Source: a virus
Length of the DNA stretch: 22,597 nucleotides
IMG/VR virus record: IMGVR_UViG_3300034012_000094
Coordinates: 1 to 22,597 of that record
Direction: 5' to 3' (one strand)
Part shown: piece after piece, positions 6,641 to 22,597 of the stretch
How the letters are laid out: each line of letters opens with the position of its first letter
How positions within the stretch are numbered: the stretch's first letter is position 1
Position numbers and translations under genes: made by a program
Notes under the pieces: generated by a model
Seen by the model: the letters and a program-made list of their open reading frames with translations, nothing else
Told to the model about the DNA's origin: nothing
The model's database searches: none

Positions 6641-7229
6641 TCTATTTCCTATCCCTGTAGGCTTTGCAGAGCTTGGTAGACCCTTGTCTGATGAGGAGTT
6701 GTTCTTCATTCGTGAGCTTCAGACACGACCTAACATGGGTAACACCACAAGCACCAACAACTTTGTACTGCGTGACCCTGCGTTGACATCACTTCGTTCG
6801 TTTATCGAAGATAGTGTTTCAGATTACTTTAAAAGCACAGTCAATCCCAAGCACAACGTATCCCTACGCATCACACAAAGCTGGTGTAACTACTCAGATC
6901 CAGGGCAGTATCACCACAAACACGCACATCCCAATAGCTACATCAGTGGCGTGTTCTATGTGCAAACCAACGCTGATGACAGAATTTACTTCTACCGTGA
7001 TGGCTGGCAGCAGATCAAGTTCCCGCCGGAGCAGTGGAACCCGTACAACTCAGAGTCTTGGTGGTTTGAAGCCACAGCAGGAAAGCTGATTCTGTTTCCA
7101 TCGTCACTGACGCATATGGTTCCTGAAGTCAAAGGCGATGACACTCGGATTAGCTTATCGTTTAACACATTCCCTTTCGGTGTTGTCGGGGAAGAAATGG
7201 ATTTAACTGGATTAAAGCTGGAGGCGTAA
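6627..7229 (+). CDS. 2-oxoglutarate/Fe(II)-dependent oxygenase-like protein
   Basis: This 200-aa protein matches the putative 2OG-Fe(II) oxygenase family (PF13759/TIGR02466-like, recalled). Such enzymes couple oxidation of a substrate to 2-oxoglutarate decarboxylation. The double-stranded beta-helix core carries the motif HAHPNSYISGVFYV (iron ligands from H99/H101), then 'GKLILFPSSLTHMV' with the distal H163, and 'DTRISLSFN' with R174, the expected 2OG contact. The N-terminus has 'NLFPIPVGF' as in relatives. The start is GTG at 6627 on ribosome-site spacing; TTG at 6621 would add two residues. Its stop overlaps the HNH start as TAATG. Substrate is unknown: protein, DNA base and small-molecule targets are all possible. 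Its position among tail genes is shared with many aquatic phages, so a virion or fibre modification is a guess. Confidence 0.8.
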   Translation: MQLHNLFPIPVGFAELGRPLSDEELFFIRELQTRPNMGNTTSTNNFVLRDPALTSLRSFIEDSVSDYFKSTVNPKHNVSLRITQSWCNYSDPGQYHHKHAHPNSYISGVFYVQTNADDRIYFYRDGWQQIKFPPEQWNPYNSESWWFEATAGKLILFPSSLTHMVPEVKGDDTRISLSFNTFPFGVVGEEMDLTGLKLEA

Positions 7230-7693
7230 TGGTTACTCAAGAACGTCTTAAGGAATTGTTTGAGTACCGTGACGGATTTCTGTACGCCAAGCAAGGATAC
7301 CAGCCAAAGTTTACGCCAATAAAAGGCGGTCATAGATACATTAGGATGCGTGTTGATGGCAAGGTTTATCCTTTGCATAGGCTTATTTTTTTGTATCACC
7401 ACGGATATTTACCGAAAATAACAGACCACGCCAACAACGACCGCTCGGACAATAGGATAGAAAATCTAAGAGAAGTAACGCAGAGTGAAAATTGCTTGAA
7501 TAGACGCGTTCACGCGAATAACAAAACCGGAATGAAAAACGTTTATTTTGACAAAGGCTGCAAAAAATGGATCGTCCAGATAACCGTTGGCCAAAAGCGT
7601 AAAGTAATGGGTTATTTTGAGGATATTGAACTTGCTGAATTGGTTGCTATCGAAGCAAGAAACAAGTTTCACGGAATATTTGCAAGGAGTTGA
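7229..7693 (+). CDS. HNH homing-type endonuclease with AP2 DNA-binding domain
   Basis: This 154-aa protein combines an HNH_3-type nuclease domain and an AP2-like DNA-binding domain. The nuclease part has PLHRLIFLYHHGYLP (H50), ITDHANNDRSDNRIENLREVT (H67, N75, N79) and NCLNRR. The C-terminal ~55 residues (NKTGMKNVYFDKGCKKWIVQI, then GYFEDIELAELVAIEARNKF) have the AP2 pattern. Such free-standing endonucleases are mobile genes that spread into related genomes. By hand count, 7381-7620 is about 39% G+C (94/240), against 47-58% in sampled 60-base stretches of its flanking genes, consistent with transfer. It fits with almost no gap: TAATG upstream, and its stop is two bases before the next ATG. Residues needed for catalysis look intact. 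Confidence 0.85.
   Translation: MVTQERLKELFEYRDGFLYAKQGYQPKFTPIKGGHRYIRMRVDGKVYPLHRLIFLYHHGYLPKITDHANNDRSDNRIENLREVTQSENCLNRRVHANNKTGMKNVYFDKGCKKWIVQITVGQKRKVMGYFEDIELAELVAIEARNKFHGIFARS
7684..7689 (+). promoter_or_regulatory. Ribosome-binding site inside the HNH gene for the next gene
   Basis: AAGGAG lies in the last codons of the endonuclease gene, six bases before the ATG at 7696. It picks that ATG over the in-frame TTG at 7690. Confidence 0.7.
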
Positions 7694-10525: not shown

Positions 10526-10837
10526 ATGCAATACTGGACAAAGAACGGGTCTATCCCAAGCACTGAAACAGATGGTACTGAAGGCTGGCAACCGGCTCCA
10601 GAGCCTCCGACAGACGTTCCTGCTGACAAAGAACTTGTATGGCTAAACTGGGAATGGATCGTAAGAGACCCTAAGCCAGTAGACAGGGCGGGCTATCAGT
10701 GGAACTGGCAGCACGAAGGCAAGACTTGGGTAGAGAGTGCTTGGCAAACATCGCCTTCAGAAGAAATACCCATTACAATCCCAGAAGTCCTAACCACATC
10801 CCAAGTTTCAAATCTCACCACGGCACAGCTCATATAA
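10526..10837 (+). CDS. Small Trp-rich phage protein, 103 aa
   Basis: The product is acidic and Trp-rich, with 'QYWTKNGSIPSTETDGTEGW', 'WLNWEWIVRDPKPVDRAGYQWNW' and 'KTWVESAW', and no membrane segment. The alternating W-x-W/W-E-W segments are typical of short unnamed proteins lying beside fibre genes, possibly fibre-assembly chaperones. I do not recognise a specific family. GAGGT lies five bases before the ATG. It sits between the triple-LamG protein and the 20-residue repeat protein. Confidence 0.6.
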   Translation: MQYWTKNGSIPSTETDGTEGWQPAPEPPTDVPADKELVWLNWEWIVRDPKPVDRAGYQWNWQHEGKTWVESAWQTSPSEEIPITIPEVLTTSQVSNLTTAQLI

Positions 10838-10846
10838 GGCAACAAT

Positions 10847-11962
10847 GTGTTCGGTTTTGATCCGTTTTCAACTGCGCCGTTCTCAGCGATCAGTGGATCG
10901 GGTGCCAACACATACCAAAAGGAAGTAGCCGAAACAGCCACCGGTACTGACGCTACCGATGCAATCCTAACGATTAATTCAGCCGTTGCAGAAACGGCTA
11001 CGGGTACAGACACCACCAACGCAAACCTCACCATCGATTCGGCTGTTGCAGAAACGGCCACGGCAACAGATACAACTGCGTCAAACCTCGCGCTTGATTC
11101 AGCCGTCGCTGAAAGCGCCACGGCAACAGACACCACCGACGCAACACCTGTATTAAGTGGGACCATAGCCGAGTCCGCTACGGGTACTGATGCCGTAAGC
11201 GCAGAGCAAACGCTGGGTGCGAGCGTAGCCGAGACCGCTACAGGTACTGACTCAATCACCAACAACCTCACGCTAAATACAAACCTAGCTGAGTCGGCTA
11301 CTGCTACAGATTCGGTGACGGCTGGTGACGTATTTAGTGAAGCAGTTGCGGAATCAGCAACAGGCTCAGATGTCGTTGCGGGTGATAAGTTTATTAATAC
11401 CCTGATTGCCGAAGCAGCGACAGCGACTGACAGTATTAGCGCTACGTATACTTTGGTGGCTTCGGTTTCAGAGGTTGCGCTCGGTGCCGACGCTATAACA
11501 ACCATCATCGATACGTCTGGCAGCGTGTCAGAAAGTGCGACGGGTTCTGATGCTACCTCTGCGGCAGGGGAAGTTGATGGGGCTATTGCCGAGACTGCTA
11601 CAGGTACAGACAGCACAGCGGCTGGGTTCTTATACGATAAGGCAGTTTCTGAGTCTGCAACAGGACTTGATTCGGTTGAGTCGCTCTATATTCTGGGTGC
11701 CATCGTTGCTGAAACTGCGACAGCAGTGGATAATGTCGTAGCGCGAGCAGATTTTGTTGATGCTGTACTTGAGTCGGCGCAGGGCGCGGACCTAACGCAG
11801 GGTGGCGGGTTGTTTAATGTTGGGGTGTCGGAGTCGGCGTCCATAACAGACGTGGCGTTTAGTCGGTTCTTGTGGGAGCTTATCGATGATTCCCAAGTGG
11901 CAAACTGGCAGACCATTAACACAAACCAAACTTCCAACTGGCAACCCGTCGATATGACATGA
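10847..11962 (+). CDS. Fibre-like protein of 16 tandem 20-residue repeats
   Basis: This is a 371-aa protein. After 26 ordinary residues (MFGFDPFSTAPFSAISGSGA, NTYQKE) it is built of 16 consecutive repeats of exactly 20 residues (residues 27-346). Each begins with VAETATGTD or a close variant and ends in a variable beta-prone half. The C-terminal 30 residues (FLWELIDDSQVANWQTINTN, QTSNWQPVDMT) contain two NWQ motifs. The ETATGTD repeat is known to me from phage and some bacterial surface proteins; its fold is uncertain, and a solenoid or trimeric fibre shaft is inference. The start is GTG at 10847, with AAGG seven bases before it. The ATG at 10845 is out of frame. The same repeat reappears in the LamG fibre gene at 12968. 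Confidence 0.7.
   Translation: MFGFDPFSTAPFSAISGSGANTYQKEVAETATGTDATDAILTINSAVAETATGTDTTNANLTIDSAVAETATATDTTASNLALDSAVAESATATDTTDATPVLSGTIAESATGTDAVSAEQTLGASVAETATGTDSITNNLTLNTNLAESATATDSVTAGDVFSEAVAESATGSDVVAGDKFINTLIAEAATATDSISATYTLVASVSEVALGADAITTIIDTSGSVSESATGSDATSAAGEVDGAIAETATGTDSTAAGFLYDKAVSESATGLDSVESLYILGAIVAETATAVDNVVARADFVDAVLESAQGADLTQGGGLFNVGVSESASITDVAFSRFLWELIDDSQVANWQTINTNQTSNWQPVDMT
10925..11884 (+). repeat. 16 tandem in-frame 60-bp repeats encoding VAETATGTD units
   Basis: Sixteen units of 60 bases encode the first nine or so residues as VAETATGTD, (V/I)AESATGTD, VSESATGSD and similar forms. The last eleven residues diverge. Unit length is constant, with no indels, which keeps frame. 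DNA similarity between units is moderate because third codon positions vary, so the array is old rather than freshly expanded. Confidence 0.8.
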
Positions 11963-11970
11963 GGTAAACC

Positions 11971-12960
11971 ATGCCTATTACAAGAACTTCTCTCCTCGAT
12001 TTACCCATTATTGAAACCGACACGGAAGTTGGTCAGTGGGGTAACGCCATTAATAATGGCTTAACGCAGTATATTGATATTGCTGTTGCAGGGATTACTA
12101 ACCTGACAGGTTCAAACTTTTCAGGCTCGCCAAACTACGACCTGACATTATCCCTAACCGAGGGTGATGCAAGTGCAACCAATATTGTTTATAACAGCGC
12201 TCAATACTCCACAATCAGGGTATCAAGCCTTAACGCTAACTCAACCATCATAGCCCCTGCGTCATCACGCTCCTATAAAGTTATTAACGCAGACTCAACC
12301 TACACGCTAACAGTTAAAGCTACAGGTCAAACAGGCGTAACGGTTAACCCTGGTGCCTCACTCGTTGCTGTGTTTAACGGCACGGACTATGTGGGTCTTG
12401 GTGTGCAGGCTGCTGCCACACTTACATCAGGGCAGCTCATTAAAGGTGCAGGTTCTACGGTTGTTACACCTGCTACTGCCGGAACCGATTACGTAGCTCC
12501 CGGTACAGCCACAACATTCACGGCGCTTCAAACGTTTTCTGGTACTTCGGCAAACCTCGCTCAAGTGCTTGCAAATTCGTCAGAAGTCGTGACGGTTAAC
12601 GCCACCGTTGTTCCATCCACGGTTAACTACGATGTGACTACACAGTCCGTTATTTACTATACCGGTGGGGCTGGTGGTTCTAATTGGACCGTTAACTTTA
12701 GGGCTTCGACGGGCACAACACTTAATACGGCGCTGGCAACAGGGCGCAGTGTGACCGTGGCATTGATGGCTACACAGAACGCAACTCCTTACTACAACAA
12801 CATCATACAAGTTGATGGAAACACCATAACTCCAAAGTATCAGGGCGGTATTGCTTGGACCGGAGGTAATGCTTCGGGTATTGATGTTTACGTATATACG
12901 ATTATTAAAACAGCATCGGCAACTTTTACGGTGCTAGCTTCTCAAACTAAATTTACCTGA
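11971..12960 (+). CDS. Tail-fibre-like protein, 329 aa
   Basis: Likely a fibre component. The N-terminus (PITRTSLLDLPIIETDTEVG, then QWGNAINNGLTQYIDIAVAG) is a virion-attachment module I recognise from other phage fibres ('W G...N.gl...ida'). Then come beta segments NSTIIAPASSRSYKVINAD and STYTLTVKATGQTGVTVNPG, typical of shaft domains. A linker follows, 'TSGQLIKGAGSTVVTPATAG', then 'TDYVAPGTATTFTALQTFSG', also typical of fibre shafts. The C-terminal third (VTVNATVVPSTVNYDVTTQS onward) looks like a separate beta domain. GAGGT lies five bases before the ATG. No enzymatic motif was seen. Confidence 0.65.
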   Translation: MPITRTSLLDLPIIETDTEVGQWGNAINNGLTQYIDIAVAGITNLTGSNFSGSPNYDLTLSLTEGDASATNIVYNSAQYSTIRVSSLNANSTIIAPASSRSYKVINADSTYTLTVKATGQTGVTVNPGASLVAVFNGTDYVGLGVQAAATLTSGQLIKGAGSTVVTPATAGTDYVAPGTATTFTALQTFSGTSANLAQVLANSSEVVTVNATVVPSTVNYDVTTQSVIYYTGGAGGSNWTVNFRASTGTTLNTALATGRSVTVALMATQNATPYYNNIIQVDGNTITPKYQGGIAWTGGNASGIDVYVYTIIKTASATFTVLASQTKFT

Positions 12961-12967
12961 GATTGAT

Positions 12968-13846
12968 ATGCCGGTTATTCAACGTTTAGCTGCTGGAGGC
13001 GCTCGGGGTTTTGGTTTCGGTGTCGGAGGTGTTACTTATTCCGGGCTTATTACTGAAACTGCAACCGGTGCAGATAGCGTAAACGGTATACCCCCTTATC
13101 AAGGCATTATTACTGAAACTGCAACCGGTGCAGATAGTACAGACGGTACGTCTAATTCGACATATCAAGTGTCAACCGCAGAAACAGCTACGGGGTCTGA
13201 TTCCATATCCAGCAGCCTGATTTTGCCAGGGTACGCTAGCTTTGATTTCAATGGGTCCGCATACGTTGATACGCCGACTAGCTCTACGTTTGCAACAGGA
13301 TCAAACGATTGGACTTTGCAGTTTTTTATTTATCTTCGCGCTACCCCCAGCTCAAACACTACCGTATTTGACGTAGGCAGTGGGGTTGTTACTAATGGGT
13401 GGCGGGTTGAAATTACGACATCTAGACAAGTTCGGCTTCTTGGGCTGTCTTCTTATAACACTACTGCGGGGCTCTCATTAAACACTTGGTACTTTATTAC
13501 AGTAACGCGGTACTCATCCCCCGGCGTTTATATTTTTATTGACTCTACAAGAAACACAGCGTCTTCGTTTAACCTTGGTACGCTTTCTTCCAGCACCTAT
13601 TGCCGTATCGGTGGGGCTCAGAATAACGCAACACGTATTAATGCGCTGATTAGTAATTTGCAGTTTAGAAACAATATTTCTGTTTCGTCTGTAACTGTAC
13701 CAACAACCCCACTTACAAACGACGCAAATACGTTGCTGCTCACTTGCCAGAACGGGACAATTATTGATAACAGCACTGCTAACGGTGGCAGTCCGTGGAC
13801 GCTGACTAACAGCGGAACGACAACAACTTCTACGAATCCACTTTGA
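12968..13846 (+). CDS. Repeat-plus-LamG tail adhesin, 292 aa
   Basis: This protein is a chimera of modules used elsewhere in the window. A Gly-rich N-terminus (PVIQRLAAGGARGFGFGVGG) leads to three copies of the ETATG motif (residues ~28-80): LITETATGADSV, IITETATGADST and STAETATGSDSI. A LamG-like domain follows from about residue 93, with FDFNGSAYVDTPTSSTFATG, WTLQFFIYLRAT, NTWYFITVTRYSSPGVYIFI and LISNLQFRNNISV. The closing segment VPTTPLTNDANTLLLTCQNG, then DNSTANGGSPWTLTN, parallels the linkers of the triple-LamG protein. It is probably another receptor-binding protein. The upstream ribosome site is weak. Confidence 0.7.
   Translation: MPVIQRLAAGGARGFGFGVGGVTYSGLITETATGADSVNGIPPYQGIITETATGADSTDGTSNSTYQVSTAETATGSDSISSSLILPGYASFDFNGSAYVDTPTSSTFATGSNDWTLQFFIYLRATPSSNTTVFDVGSGVVTNGWRVEITTSRQVRLLGLSSYNTTAGLSLNTWYFITVTRYSSPGVYIFIDSTRNTASSFNLGTLSSSTYCRIGGAQNNATRINALISNLQFRNNISVSSVTVPTTPLTNDANTLLLTCQNGTIIDNSTANGGSPWTLTNSGTTTTSTNPL
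13047..13137 (+). repeat. 31-bp exact direct repeat, 60 bp apart
   Basis: Bases 13047-13077 recur exactly at 13107-13137, a 60-base period that matches the 60-bp units of the repeat gene at 10847. Both copies encode ITETATGAD. The exact identity suggests recent duplication by slippage or recombination. Confidence 0.75.
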
Positions 13847-13883: not shown

Positions 13884-14300
13884 ATGGACGATAAAACCCA
13901 CGAGCTAGCAGTCCTGAAAGCACAAGCCAGAATTAGGCTTGAAGAGCTAAAGGCCCAAGACTCTGCCAAAGAAGTTGCTGGTAAAGCGATTGGCGAAGAT
14001 GGATTGCTTTACATCTTCTTGATTGTGCTCGTGGGCGTTGGTGCGTCCTTATTCCTAGAAGGCGAAAAAATTGCTGCTGTTATGGGTCTTTTGGGCGCTT
14101 CACTTACTGCACTTATTCAAATGCTAAATGGCATCGCAGGCACTGCGCCAAAGCAAGAAAAGCCTGAGTTTGAAGTCATCAAGGATCTCATCACTCGGTT
14201 GGACAAGCTTGATCGTGCCGAGCCACCCATGCAAGTGGATGTTGAAGGATCCAAAGTTACAGTCAAGAAAGGTGCCGACATCGTGACGGCTAAGGGGTAA
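13884..14300 (+). CDS. Small membrane protein of the lysis cassette, 138 aa
   Basis: A charged, helical N-terminus (MDDKTHELAVLKAQARIRLE, ELKAQDSAKEVAGKAIG) leads into a transmembrane helix, GLLYIFLIVLVGVGASLFLE, and a second hydrophobic stretch, IAAVMGLLGASLTALIQMLNG. The C-terminal half is charged (residues 96-138) and ends VTVKKGADIVTAKG. With a 3-TM holin-like gene and a lysozyme immediately after it, it may be a second holin, an antiholin or another membrane lysis factor. It has no lipobox, so it does not look like a spanin. The start is uncertain: ATG at 13884 follows an AAGAA run and begins the natural MDDKTHEL terminus, while the in-frame ATG at 13857 would add nine residues but has only a poor ribosome site. 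Confidence 0.6.
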   Translation: MDDKTHELAVLKAQARIRLEELKAQDSAKEVAGKAIGEDGLLYIFLIVLVGVGASLFLEGEKIAAVMGLLGASLTALIQMLNGIAGTAPKQEKPEFEVIKDLITRLDKLDRAEPPMQVDVEGSKVTVKKGADIVTAKG

Positions 14301-18022: not shown

Positions 18023-19092
18023 CCACTTCGACCCAAATCACACCCGAAGCAGCTCTGGCGAAGTTCAATGCGTTTGTGCAGTCGCAGCAAATGCAGGATT
18101 ATTTATCCCAACGCCAACAGCAATATGGCACAACTCCCAAAGGCGCAGCTTCGGATAAGGGGTGGACCGCAGGTGAATCTTACGCCAACCCGTTTGCAGG
18201 GTTGAAGGAATTTGGTTCAGAGGAAAAACCCACATTAAATTGGAACGCAGCGCTTGGCGAAGCGGGTGAGTACGAGTCTGGAACTCAGACCCAACAGAAG
18301 TCAGCCTATGACATATTAAAAGGCGCTTTTAATACAGAAGATAATATCTTTGGACACAAGTCCACCTTCACTAAAGCCTACAGTACATCCGAGAAAGATG
18401 CTAAGGGCAATCCGATTGAGATTAAAAACCCAACGCTTGAAGATATTCAATCAGGCAAAGTTGCTTTTTTAGTAGGCGGTAAGACAGGTGGTGAAAGCCG
18501 CGAGCGTATGGCTCAGATGTATTTGCCTATGGGTGATAAACTTGTCCCTATCGGAGATCCCCAGTATTACAAAGGCGAGCATCCTGACGCTAAGAATGTA
18601 GCTAATGCCTTAAAGATTGCTTCGATTGCTTCACTGCCTTTTGGTGGGATTGGTGCGTTTCTTGGGCCTGTAACCGGCACGGTTGCTAGCGGTATCGCTT
18701 CGCTTGGACTTCCAGCTATGGCGGCAAATATCGGCGCTAATGCTTTGGTAAGCGGGGGGTTAAACGCTGGTATTGCAAAACTCGTAGACATGGATGCGGG
18801 TAAAGCATTTAAGTCTGGCGCTACATCCGGGGCTATTGGTGCGGGACTTGGCGAACTCGGTGCGGCTACTGGTTTGGATAAAGGGTTAGGTGCGCTGTAC
18901 ACCCCCGCTAAATCAATCGCTACTTCTGGGCTTACGTCTGCTGCGCTTGGTAGACCGTTTAACTTTTCCGAAGCTGCCAAGAATGCAGCCCTGTCTTATG
19001 GGTTACAGCAAGCTTTGGGTTCAACCGATTTAGCCCCCAAGCAGGGCGAAGCACTTAACAAATTCCTAGAGTTTCTGGGGAGGAAGCCGTAA
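18019..19092 (+). CDS. Putative internal virion protein with Gly/Ala-rich hydrophobic region
   Basis: This 357-aa protein starts with a Gln-rich helical stretch (ALAKFNAFVQSQQMQDYLSQ, RQQQYGTTPKG). The mid part (residues ~35-190) is mixed and polar. Residues ~195-320 form a long Gly/Ala-rich hydrophobic region (ASIASLPFGGIGAFLGPVTG, SLGLPAMAANIGANALVSGG, then SGATSGAIGAGLGELG) with small-residue spacing like a membrane-active segment. The C-terminus is FSEAAKNAALSYGLQQALGS. The region resembles the amphipathic or hydrophobic parts of podovirus ejection proteins, and it sits ahead of two other Ala/Gln-rich genes. No enzyme motif was seen. Assignment as an internal/ejection protein is inference. 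Confidence 0.5.
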   Translation: MTTSTQITPEAALAKFNAFVQSQQMQDYLSQRQQQYGTTPKGAASDKGWTAGESYANPFAGLKEFGSEEKPTLNWNAALGEAGEYESGTQTQQKSAYDILKGAFNTEDNIFGHKSTFTKAYSTSEKDAKGNPIEIKNPTLEDIQSGKVAFLVGGKTGGESRERMAQMYLPMGDKLVPIGDPQYYKGEHPDAKNVANALKIASIASLPFGGIGAFLGPVTGTVASGIASLGLPAMAANIGANALVSGGLNAGIAKLVDMDAGKAFKSGATSGAIGAGLGELGAATGLDKGLGALYTPAKSIATSGLTSAALGRPFNFSEAAKNAALSYGLQQALGSTDLAPKQGEALNKFLEFLGRKP

Positions 19093-20507
19093 TGACAACA
19101 TCTTTTGGGTTTGGTATTGGCCCCGATAACGACGGGCTAACCACTTTGCCGGAAGATTTAACTTACGACGATTTCTTCGAGGCTTTAAGTAATATTGACC
19201 CTTCAACAGTAGCGGCAGCAAATAAATTTTTATCTACTGAAGATCTGATCACTGGGCGCGGTACTGATGTTCAACAAATGCTGCAAAATATATACTCCAC
19301 GCCAGGGTCGCAAGAAGTTATAGCCCCTTACTTTGAGGAGTTTTCTAGGCAAAACCCTGAGCTAGCTGCTCAGTTGCAGCCGTATTTTGAAAAGTTGGTA
19401 GATCCTAATACCCCACGCACGGTATTTGATACTAAGTCTTTTTCCATGCCAACTACTGAAAACAACACCGCTAGCTTTTTAAACTCGGGTGTAAATATGA
19501 GTACAGCAATCGAACCAATATCCAGATTACCTCTCGACCCGGACGAGAATATCGCTAGGTTAGATGTTTCTGGCACGGTGGATATTCCAGATGACATTTC
19601 CATATTACGCGATATTGATGACGCAACTATTGGGGATGTTTCAATTAAACCCCCTAGCGGTGCAGACCTAGCCAGCTTTTTTGACGCTTTTAAAAACATA
19701 GATCCTATTGCTGCCGCAGCTTTACTTGGAATACCTGCGATTGCTAGCGCGTTAAGCGGTAGCGGAGCTGGAACTGCCGCAAGTTCTGCTATTCCTACAA
19801 CTACACCCCCACCCGGAACAACTACACCCCCACCCGGAACAACCACACCTCCACCCGGAACAACCACACCTCCACCCGGAACAACCACACCTCCACCCGG
19901 AACAACCACACCTCCACCCGGAACAACCACACCTCCACCCGGAACGACTACACCTCCACCTACAACAGATACAACGACAACTTCAACAAGTCCAAATCCG
20001 ACAGAAGATGAGTTAATAAGGGCTGGGGTGCCTAAAGAATTAATCCCGCTGCTACTCAAATACGGCCTTGGGGCGCTAGCTTCTTACTTATCCTATAAGT
20101 CTGCCAAGGATGCTCAGGAGCAAGCTAGAGGTGCGTCATTTACTGAGAAGGGTCCGGTAACTTCAACACGTCGGGCGTATCAAGGTAGTACGTACAAACC
20201 TGCGGCGCAGGGTGGGCTGATGACGCTTGCCGGTGGTGGTATGACTGCTAAGCAACCCTTTTACCTCGGCGGTCCTACGGATGGTATGGCAGATGAAGTC
20301 CCTGCACATATCGACAACAAGCGCCCTGCTGCATTAAGTGATGGTGAGTTTGTGATCCCGGCAGATGTTGTTAGTCATTTAGGCAATGGTAATTCCAATG
20401 CTGGTGCAAGTCGTTTATATGAAATGATGGATCGCGTGCGTGAAGCACGTACTGGTAACAGAAAGCAGGGTATTCAAATCAACCCTAACAAATTTATGCC
20501 GAGGTAA
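19092..20507 (+). CDS. Putative internal virion protein with Pro-rich repeat linker
   Basis: This 471-aa protein has three regions. Residues 1-235 are mixed and helical, with a hydrophobic FDAFKNIDPIAAAALLGIPA segment. Residues 236-291 are eight TTTPPPG repeats followed by a Thr/Ser stretch. After a hydrophobic helix (LIPLLLKYGLGALASYLSYK), the C-terminal ~100 residues include the motif LMTLAGGGMTAKQPFYLGGP and 'ALSDGEFVIPADVVSHLGNG'. I recall that motif from the C-termini of many podovirus-like proteins that precede a large internal-protein gene, as here. GGGGAGGA lies seven bases upstream. Its start overlaps the previous stop by one base. Role is not characterised. Confidence 0.55.
   Translation: MTTSFGFGIGPDNDGLTTLPEDLTYDDFFEALSNIDPSTVAAANKFLSTEDLITGRGTDVQQMLQNIYSTPGSQEVIAPYFEEFSRQNPELAAQLQPYFEKLVDPNTPRTVFDTKSFSMPTTENNTASFLNSGVNMSTAIEPISRLPLDPDENIARLDVSGTVDIPDDISILRDIDDATIGDVSIKPPSGADLASFFDAFKNIDPIAAAALLGIPAIASALSGSGAGTAASSAIPTTTPPPGTTTPPPGTTTPPPGTTTPPPGTTTPPPGTTTPPPGTTTPPPGTTTPPPTTDTTTTSTSPNPTEDELIRAGVPKELIPLLLKYGLGALASYLSYKSAKDAQEQARGASFTEKGPVTSTRRAYQGSTYKPAAQGGLMTLAGGGMTAKQPFYLGGPTDGMADEVPAHIDNKRPAALSDGEFVIPADVVSHLGNGNSNAGASRLYEMMDRVREARTGNRKQGIQINPNKFMPR
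19797..19964 (+). repeat. 8 tandem 21-bp repeats (TTTPPPG)
   Basis: Eight 21-base units, ACAACYACACCYCCACCCGGA in form. Units 1-2 are identical to each other, units 3-7 are identical to each other, and unit 8 has diverged. The length stays a multiple of three, so changes in copy number would alter linker length without breaking frame. Confidence 0.85.
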
Positions 20508-20509
20508 TC

Positions 20510-22597
20510 ATGGCTGTTGACATTGAAGCACTAAAAATAGCTGCCGCTGGTTCTGAAGGCGACAAGATTAAATGGTATGCCTCGCAGTTACGTGCAGGAT
20601 ACACCGACGCTCAAATACGTGATGCTGTTAATAGAGCGCTAGGCACCACTTACACTGGCGCGGAAGAAGATTGGAAATATCTTCAAGATAAAGCTGCTGA
20701 AGATGTTATTAAACAAGTTAGTACAGGGTCTGCAAAAGATAAGGCTACGGCGTACAACCAGCTCTATCAAGGTGCAGGGTTAAGTAACGACGCTATCCAG
20801 CAGAATATTATTGAGATTGCGGGAGAGCAAGATCCAGAAGATATTAGAGCGCTTCTTGGGATTGCTGGTGCTCAACGCGCAGCGCAATTACCAACTGGGG
20901 AAGCTAAAGCTGATTATGTAAAAGAGATGGTTGGGTATGACTATACCCCCGAAGAAATTATTAATTACATTAATACAGGTGTTGGCGAACAAACTCCAGA
21001 AGATATGACTGAGTTGTTCAGGCTCGCCGGAATACAGATACCCGCTGCTGGTGGTGCTGATACGGTTAAAGCTGCTGGTGGTGCTGATACGGTTAAAGCT
21101 GCTGGTGGTGCTGATACGGTTAAAGCTGCTGGTGGTGCTGATACGGTTAAAGCTGCTGGTGGTGCTGATACAGTTGTAGCTGGTGGAGGTGCTGATACGG
21201 TCACGGCTGCTGGTGGTGCTGATACGGTCACGGCTGCTGGTGGGAACGACACCGTTAGCGCAACAACTACTTGGACATCTCCTACGGGTATAACAATCCA
21301 AGTCCCTGCTGGGTGGGAAAGATTCACTGGACAGCAAAAAGTTGACTGGTTCAAAAGTAAGAATATGACCGGCTCTACGCTGCAAGCGTTGGGCATACCC
21401 GCTACCGATATAGCAAGCGCAATCAAATTAGGTTTGCCGTCAGGCGCAAGTGCAAACTTTGACACCACAGTTAGGGGCGCTCCTACCACTGACCGTGTTG
21501 GTACAGGTGTTGCAGTTACAGGAGAGTCTGGACTGCGTGAGGGGTATGCCCCTTATGTACAACGCTTGCTTGAACGATCTTCTGCTGAAGCTGATGTGCC
21601 TTTTCAAAAGTACACGGGGGAATCCCCCTTGCTTGAGTCGGCTAAGGCAGGGATTGCTAACTTAACAACACCCGCTCAATTCTTACAGGGTTCCAATCTT
21701 GCACAGGCTGCGGGTATCGGCGCTTTGGGTTATGGGCAATATAAGCCTACGGCGTTTACGACGGGTACGTTCGCTAACCCTGTGCAGACTGAAACTACTG
21801 TACCCAAAGCTCATGGTGGTGAAATTGAGGGGTATGACGCTGGTGGTGCAGTTGATGTAGGTGGAGATTCTGCTACTAATCCTTACACAGTACCTGCTAA
21901 CCCCAACATCCAACCAACTACTTACGGTGGGCAGAACGTCACCAATGTGCAGGCGTCTTACATGTCGCCTTATATGCAGAATGTTGTTGATGTCCAGCAG
22001 CGCGAAGCCAAACGCCAAGCAGATATTGCCAACCAAGCTATCGGAGCAAAAGCCGTTCAAGCCGGTGCTTTTGGTGGGTCACGTCATGGCTTGCTGGAGT
22101 CTGAAGCAAACCGTAATCTTATGACTCAGCTTGGCGGTATTCAAGCTAAGGGTTTACAGGATGCCTATACCCAAGGACTCGGCCAATTTAATATCGAGCA
22201 AAACCGTGGGCTTGAAGCGCAGAAAATGGGCGAACAGTCTCGGCAGTTTGGTGCAGAGCTTGGGCTTAAAGGTTTGCAAACTGGTATCCAAGCAGGGCAG
22301 GCGCTTGGTAATCTTGGTCAACAACAAGGTTATCTTGATCTGGCAACGCTTAAACAAATGGCTGACTTGGGTACTGCTGACCGCAACTTTGACTATAACG
22401 AGTTCCTACGCGCTGAGAAGTATCCGTATGAGAACCTTACGTTTATGAAGAACATGCTGACGGGGCTACCTATCAGTGCAGCAGCTACGGGTATTGATCC
22501 TATGTCACAGGCGCTTACGGGGGGATTATCTACAGTAGCGCTCATAGACATGTTAAATAAAATCAATACAGGGTCTACTGGCCCGACCACAACAGGC
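20510..22597 (+). CDS. Large Ala/Gln/Gly-rich internal virion-like protein (3' partial)
   Basis: The frame runs open for 696 codons to the last base, with no stop, so the gene continues beyond the window. The N-terminal ~178 residues are helical with repeating units (SEGDKIKWYASQLRAGYTDA and similar segments at LYQGAGLSNDAIQQN). Residues 179-250 are eight nine-residue repeats (AAGGADTVK). Then comes a polar part (residues ~250-470), and the conserved block VQASYMSPYMQNVVDVQQRE, then AKRQADIANQAIGAKAVQAG, AFGGSRHGLLESEANRNLMT and LGGIQAKGLQDAYTQGLGQF. I know this block from many aquatic phages, where it marks a large virion protein, probably internal or ejected. GAGGT lies four bases before the ATG. 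Length of the full gene cannot be seen. Confidence 0.65.
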   Translation, partial: MAVDIEALKIAAAGSEGDKIKWYASQLRAGYTDAQIRDAVNRALGTTYTGAEEDWKYLQDKAAEDVIKQVSTGSAKDKATAYNQLYQGAGLSNDAIQQNIIEIAGEQDPEDIRALLGIAGAQRAAQLPTGEAKADYVKEMVGYDYTPEEIINYINTGVGEQTPEDMTELFRLAGIQIPAAGGADTVKAAGGADTVKAAGGADTVKAAGGADTVKAAGGADTVVAGGGADTVTAAGGADTVTAAGGNDTVSATTTWTSPTGITIQVPAGWERFTGQQKVDWFKSKNMTGSTLQALGIPATDIASAIKLGLPSGASANFDTTVRGAPTTDRVGTGVAVTGESGLREGYAPYVQRLLERSSAEADVPFQKYTGESPLLESAKAGIANLTTPAQFLQGSNLAQAAGIGALGYGQYKPTAFTTGTFANPVQTETTVPKAHGGEIEGYDAGGAVDVGGDSATNPYTVPANPNIQPTTYGGQNVTNVQASYMSPYMQNVVDVQQREAKRQADIANQAIGAKAVQAGAFGGSRHGLLESEANRNLMTQLGGIQAKGLQDAYTQGLGQFNIEQNRGLEAQKMGEQSRQFGAELGLKGLQTGIQAGQALGNLGQQQGYLDLATLKQMADLGTADRNFDYNEFLRAEKYPYENLTFMKNMLTGLPISAAATGIDPMSQALTGGLSTVALIDMLNKINTGSTGPTTTG
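21044..21259 (+). repeat. 8 tandem 27-bp repeats (AAGGADTVK)
   Basis: Eight 27-base units lie in frame. The first four are identical; units 5-8 vary (the endings VVA, VTA and VSA appear, and unit 8 reads AAGGNDTVS). The identity of the first units points to recent expansion. Unlike a CRISPR array, there are no spacers. Confidence 0.85.

Follow-up and report, generated by a model that had tools for sequence, protein, structure and literature searches.

A 20-residue acidic repeat unit in two putative tail-fibre genes of a tailed phage, with whole-unit length change and homology breaks at the repeat stack

Why do two fibre-like phage genes that do not adjoin carry the same short repeat, has that repeat moved from one to the other, and what might it do in each? 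The question arises in the IMG/VR virus record IMGVR_UViG_3300034012_000094, which was analysed in its entirety (22,597 bases) and is called the window here. A first-pass annotation had described a 60-bp module common to both genes and proposed that it moves between fibre genes by recombination and can be trimmed or extended in 60-bp steps. Here, we follow up these proposals in the window itself and in related virus records, and weigh what the unit may contribute to the proteins that carry it.

Two fibre-like genes and their shared unit

The window encodes structural proteins of an uncultured tailed phage. A cluster of fibre-like genes, including a Gly-rich gene (4447), a LamG gene (8486) and the genes of the repeat proteins, lies upstream of a lysozyme gene (14791) and a gene for a P22-type stabilisation protein (15309; phrog_3287 match), the latter having tblastn matches in Phage DSL-LC04 and in Roseobacter, Planktothrix and Pelagibacter phages. 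The two repeat-bearing genes, gene 1 (10847..11962) and gene 2 (12968..13846), and the gene between them (11971..12960) are all on the plus strand, as are the parts of genes 1 and 2 and the joints located below. The intervening gene is fibre-like and unrelated to either neighbour, as the first-pass annotation had it; it contains no units, and its C-terminal half corresponds to phrog_5906. Judged by gene content, with a fibre-type gene between genes 1 and 2 and the lysozyme and stabilisation genes downstream, the cluster is tail-like, and synteny and domain content suggest that the products of genes 1 and 2 are virion tail fibres.

The cluster also holds a 2OG-Fe(II) oxygenase gene (PF13759; 6621-7229), a type likewise annotated in the fibre cluster of DSL-LC04, and an HNH_3 endonuclease gene (PF13392, 7e-16; 7229-7693) that looks like a mobile insertion, because in relative L010 the oxygenase gene is directly joined to the next gene. 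Two shorter-period arrays lie elsewhere in the window, a 21-bp array coding TTTPPPG (19797-19960; 7.8 copies, 97% matches) within an ORF at 19092-20507, and a 27-bp array coding AAGGADTVK (21044-21243; 7.4 copies) whose reading frame is open at the window end.

Gene 1, delimited from its ORF and its relatives, has a GTG start and encodes 371 residues, made up of an N-terminal cap (MFGFDPFSTAPFSAISG..., 10847..10924) that most relatives retain, an array of 16 tandem 20-residue units of 60 bp each (10925..11884), and a W-rich C-terminal tail (FLWELIDDSQVANWQTINTNQTSNWQPVDMT, 11867..11959) that is conserved in A5 and resembles the DSL-LC04 tail. The tail overlaps the end of unit 16, which is degenerate and runs into FLWELI. 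The 16 constant-length repeats first reported for this gene are indeed present, with all 14 spacings between the 15 motif-called units being exactly 20 residues. The protein has 53 D/E and 5 K/R residues and, besides its long array, no recognisable binding domain in family scans; Pfam SVA matches scored under the curated cut-off and were discounted as an effect of composition. Within the core, gene 1 units agree with one another at 77% of codon positions 1 and 2 and at 32% of third positions, so that the DNA is hardly a 60-bp repeat now, except in gene 1 units 1-3 and gene 2 units 1-2. The likeness lies chiefly at the protein level, in a core of ~9 residues.

Gene 2 encodes 292 residues. Its N-terminal anchor (MPVIQRLAAGGARGFGFG..., 12968..13048), similar to an anchor in unrelated marine phages, is followed by three units (13049..13234; individually 13049-13108, 13109-13168 plus 2 residues, and 13175-13234) and then by a lectin-like LamG_3 domain (PF13385; 13250..13666, residues 95-233) that passes the Pfam curated cut-off (36.5 vs 27.6 bits) and is replaced in relatives by Lcl_C, an SBBP propeller or another domain. 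Two earlier observations on this gene were confirmed: three ETATG motifs, spaced 20 and 22 residues apart, and a 31-bp exact repeat, the 31-mer TTATTACTGAAACTGCAACCGGTGCAGATAG occurring at 13047..13077 and again, offset by 60, at 13107..13137.

Is the likeness between the two genes more than chance? A 20-position profile derived from gene 1 alone was run over all six frames of the window, with 200 shuffles of gene 2 as control. The top three matches outside gene 1 were the gene 2 units (23.3, 23.1 and, for the middle unit, 11.9 bits), and the shuffles gave a best match of 12.0 bits and a mean maximum of 1.2, so the middle unit taken alone does not exceed the shuffle maximum. The likeness of the gene 2 units to gene 1 is not chance. 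Both genes keep a 20-residue phase with Glu at position 3 and Asp at position 9 of each unit, and the claim of a module common to two fibre-gene families, whose N- and C-termini differ, stands.

The unit family and its possible fold

A profile scan of IMG/VR returned 202 related stretches, the best 80 of which were fetched and form the basis of our array statistics. By its sequence, gene 1 is a member of a widespread, unnamed virus protein family, whose members mostly retain the cap type MFGxxxFSxxPFSxL and the W-rich tail. Among the best 80 of the 202 stretches, spacing between neighbouring gene 1 units is 20 residues in 879 of ~970 intervals (~90%) and 21 in 37, and arrays mostly hold 8 to 20 called units, the extremes being 3 (in a fragment) and 37. 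In about a dozen gene 1 loci ~290 residues lie between unit 3 and the remaining units; this stretch is Gly-rich in L013, L014 and others, and in L013 it is a PF21722 domain. One gene 1 relative (L061:1731-3137) has a GWGxGxWG N-terminus as in DSL-LC04, yet carries Glu/Asp units, and cap and repeat type therefore seem freely combinable.

The acidic pair is nearly invariant. Of 804 distinct gene 1 units from relatives, 99% have Glu-3 and 95% have Asp-9, figures that profile detection favours; among 33 in-phase units that the profile missed, which are hence free of its bias, 32 have Glu-3 and 27 have Asp-9. Gene 2 units from across the relatives (n=27) give 100% and 96%. Conserved positions are mainly odd (1 V/I, 3 E, 5 A, 7 A/G, 9 D, 11 V/I), the pattern expected of beta-strands with a single conserved face. 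K and R are nearly absent across gene 1 arrays, and S, T and A account for half the residues across all units.

None of Pfam, NCBIfam or PHROGs names a repeat family for the unit in 26 gene 1 members, matches being weak or unnamed; the function-less phrog_12240 matches 7 of the 26 (best 5e-9). When four gene 1 proteins were compared with a phage collection by tblastn, in which the low-complexity filter may hide some relatives, only PhiCh1 and a short C-terminal piece of DSL-LC04 were found, and the one scan of cellular genome contigs confirmed no relative. Literature searches with the unit core peptides found no description of the unit, and those on tandem-repeat copy number and fibre length found nothing about it.

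Of the known systems, Natrialba phage PhiCh1 came up by sequence search (gp34 against a gene 1 relative, tblastn E 9e-9). Like gene 1, gp34 is a tail-fibre gene in which a tandem-repeat region precedes a C-terminal domain, but its visible period is 10 residues (SQTAMDAVSD) and lacks the invariant Glu. Gene 1, with its period of 20 and no 10-residue AMDAV core, was accordingly rejected as a PhiCh1 gp34-type repeat fibre. PhiCh1 fibres also differ in being switched by an integrase and an invertible segment; no such switch appeared in Pfam and PHROG scans of the window's fibre genes or in the ORF list, the other window genes being partly scanned. Phage DSL-LC04, known from an uncultured Dishui Lake genome (PMC10611076), encodes at the corresponding position, ahead of a fibre gene of the same kind, a protein (WJZ48131) with tandem repeats and a W-rich C-terminal tail, whereas the repeat of this protein (VTGVQATGQVG...) is without the Glu/Asp pair and its N-terminus is of the GWGxGxWG type.

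A third comparison comes from structure. AlphaFold2 (AF2), given a 7-sequence input, assigned each gene 1 unit two strands (pLDDT 65 on average, and ~80 over the first nine or ten units), and left the gene 2 repeats at pLDDT below about 35, too low for a comparison of the folds of the two repeat sets. When the gene 1 model, with its mean pLDDT of 65, was compared with solved structures, the best well-fitting match was MpAFP region IV (3p4g; Z 24.5, rmsd 2.6 over 269 residues), an RTX-like, calcium-bound beta-solenoid (PMC3492233). AF2 is known to assign beta-solenoids confidently but wrongly to repeats, among them solenoids in which internal acids are stacked (PMC11795689), and because of this proneness we treat the match as a lead only. 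Foldseek returned no PDB match to the model at E below 0.001 and one unnamed viral model at 6.7e-4, and a sequence search of solved structures reached a best E of 0.046, at chance level. The 19-21-residue MpAFP repeat has a GTGND turn that resembles the ATGTD of the unit, but the unit has no GG, position 7 is G in only 42% of units, and there is no significant sequence match. We also tried to place the units as RTX- or MpAFP-type by motif (GGxGxDxUx or xGTGNDxuxuGGxuxGxux); neither motif is present, GG being absent, and Pfam and NCBIfam returned no RTX family for the 26 gene 1 members.

The unit fold is possibly a cation-binding beta-solenoid. Both acidic side chains would sit on the conserved hydrophobic face, flanking a turn, with almost no K or R to balance them. 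We put forward, tentatively and as something we think rather doubtful, that Glu-x5-Asp units make up a new type of cation-binding repeat and, when stacked, form a cation ladder, most likely with calcium, that would make a rigid shaft of adjustable length.

The same composition could be read quite differently, as that of a flexible, acidic, disordered linker in which only length and hydrophilicity matter. The excess of acidic over basic residues and the abundance of S, T and A fit such a linker, as do the low pLDDT of the gene 2 units and the liability of AF2 solenoids on repeats to be artefacts. Against this, a disordered linker needs neither the constraint seen at Glu-3 and Asp-9, which extends to the units that the profile missed, nor the near-constant spacing of 20, and it would not need conserved residues to alternate in beta-strand fashion; we consider it unlikely. 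A multivalent binding array, in which host glycans, metal ions or particles are bound by the units themselves and a change in length adjusts avidity, not reach, would account for an invariant acidic pair in every unit and for long gene 1 arrays that accompany no recognisable binding domain. Yet in gene 2 the anchor and the lectin-like domains lie on either side of the units, a spacer-like position, the conserved residues take in a hydrophobic face such as a core should have, and no family match points to binding, all of which makes this reading improbable as well.

Proposed unit movement, length change and homology breaks

If the module were a cassette that ongoing recombination shuttled from one of the two genes to the other within a genome, the core common to both genes and the recent duplications within each (the 31-bp exact repeat in gene 2 and units 1-3 in gene 1) would be readily explained. 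In the window, however, the closest pair of a gene 1 and a gene 2 unit is 55% identical in DNA, third codon positions are saturated, and gene 2 units are no closer to the gene 1 of their own genome, which ranks 2-15 of 17, than to that of other genomes. Relatives, moreover, keep the intervening gene in order. DNA identity and own-genome ranking thus lend no support to the proposed movement as recent exchange within one genome, and we regard a cassette of this kind as very improbable.

All 16 virus records that were searched whole have a long array in one gene, and only the window's near relatives (L010, L013, L031, L032 and L035) have units in the anchor gene as well; the others, L012 and ten records of more distant viruses that include fragments, have units in one gene only. 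In other phages a similar anchor (GSARGFGFG) leads straight into a Gly-rich domain with zero units. These sequence comparisons suggest that the anchor gene probably gained the module once, long ago, and within the window's clade alone.

The proposed trimming and extension in 60-bp steps fared better, and is borne out in both genes. The near-identical gene 1 arrays of L043 and L065 have 17 and 18 units, most of them 98-100% identical, and the additional one matches the unit beside it at 92%. In L087 a block has been duplicated, units 7, 8 and 10 matching units 11, 12 and 14 at 93-100%, and L012 has one unit pair at 90% identity. The distance in gene 2 from the first-unit Glu to the next domain also differs by exactly one unit, between 57 residues (window) and 37 (L021) in LamG forms and between 52 (L010) and 72 (L013, L034 and L035) in Lcl_C forms, and L032 has about eleven gene 2 units. 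Gene 1 unit number is identical in the window, L009, L010, L031 and L032 (98-71% identity), which indicates that length change is not frequent in this lineage. Separately, the gene 1 arrays of L043 and L049 form a mosaic, with units 1-6 (83-97%) and 13-15 (72-83%) similar and units 10-12 dissimilar (47-48%).

Homology between phages breaks at the gene 2 stack. The window and L010 (L011 is nearly the same virus) share 94.6% identity over 10833-13075, into the first gene 2 unit, and show no relationship from there to 13884. Homology to seven relatives ends within 13021..13138, the joint on the left side of the exchanged segment: at 13051 in L013 and L035, 13059 in L021, 13057 in L031, 13138 in L034 and, ahead of the first unit, 13021 in L032. 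Six relatives therefore break at the first units and one just before them. The right joint (13884..13886) is the ATG that starts the following gene (MDDKTHELAV), and from there five of the seven (L010/L011, L013, L021, L034 and L035) are homologous again. The non-homologous regions encode LamG (diverged in L021), Lcl_C, an SBBP propeller or an unnamed domain. A gene 1 segment (10888..11624) is likewise without DNA homology in four relatives (L013, L021, L034 and L035), in which homology is lost just before unit 1 (10888-10896) and regained at units 11-12 (11537-11609); L032 has a gap at 11311-11624.

The relatives that display the gene 2 joints are few and mutually related, and an end of homology at the stack may reflect a crossover inside it, a crossover beside it or homology decay there. 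The idea of a recombining module thus holds in part: homology does break at the module, but between phages, and what is exchanged is the domain behind it. Such behaviour is of a known kind, the domain mosaicism that phage receptor-binding proteins show (Smug et al. 2023, PMC10684548), in which otherwise similar phages keep a conserved N-terminal part and exchange unrelated C-terminal domains. It differs here in that a tandem 20-residue unit, itself variable in number, forms the joint, and this unit is new and unnamed in Pfam, NCBIfam and PHROGs.

A probable adjustable shaft and exchange joint

Taken together, we think it likely that the 20-residue unit serves as a length-adjustable shaft or spacer of putative tail-fibre proteins and as a joint for exchange. 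The architecture, the whole-unit changes in copy number, the loss of homology at the stack and the swapping of domains are direct observations; that the stack is a shaft, and that recombination at the units produced the swaps, we infer. In gene 1, the long stack would link the conserved N-terminal cap to the conserved W-rich C-terminal tail, and in gene 2 the short stack would keep the N-terminal virion anchor apart from a C-terminal domain that can be exchanged (LamG, Lcl_C, SBBP propeller or other). Since the units are self-contained and in frame, unit-to-unit recombination would add or remove 60 bp, and whatever lies behind the stack could be swapped when phages recombine at it or close by. 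The swapped C-terminal domains are presumably host-binding tips.

These data add a fibre module that is present in many uncultured phage contigs and is named by none of the family libraries searched. Its variation in unit number, mostly 8 to 20 and up to 37, offers a natural series for the effect of fibre length on infection, and the locus displays concrete joints between which phages exchange their presumed receptor-binding tips. Should the acidic pair prove to bind calcium, the unit would also be a new metal-stabilised repeat.
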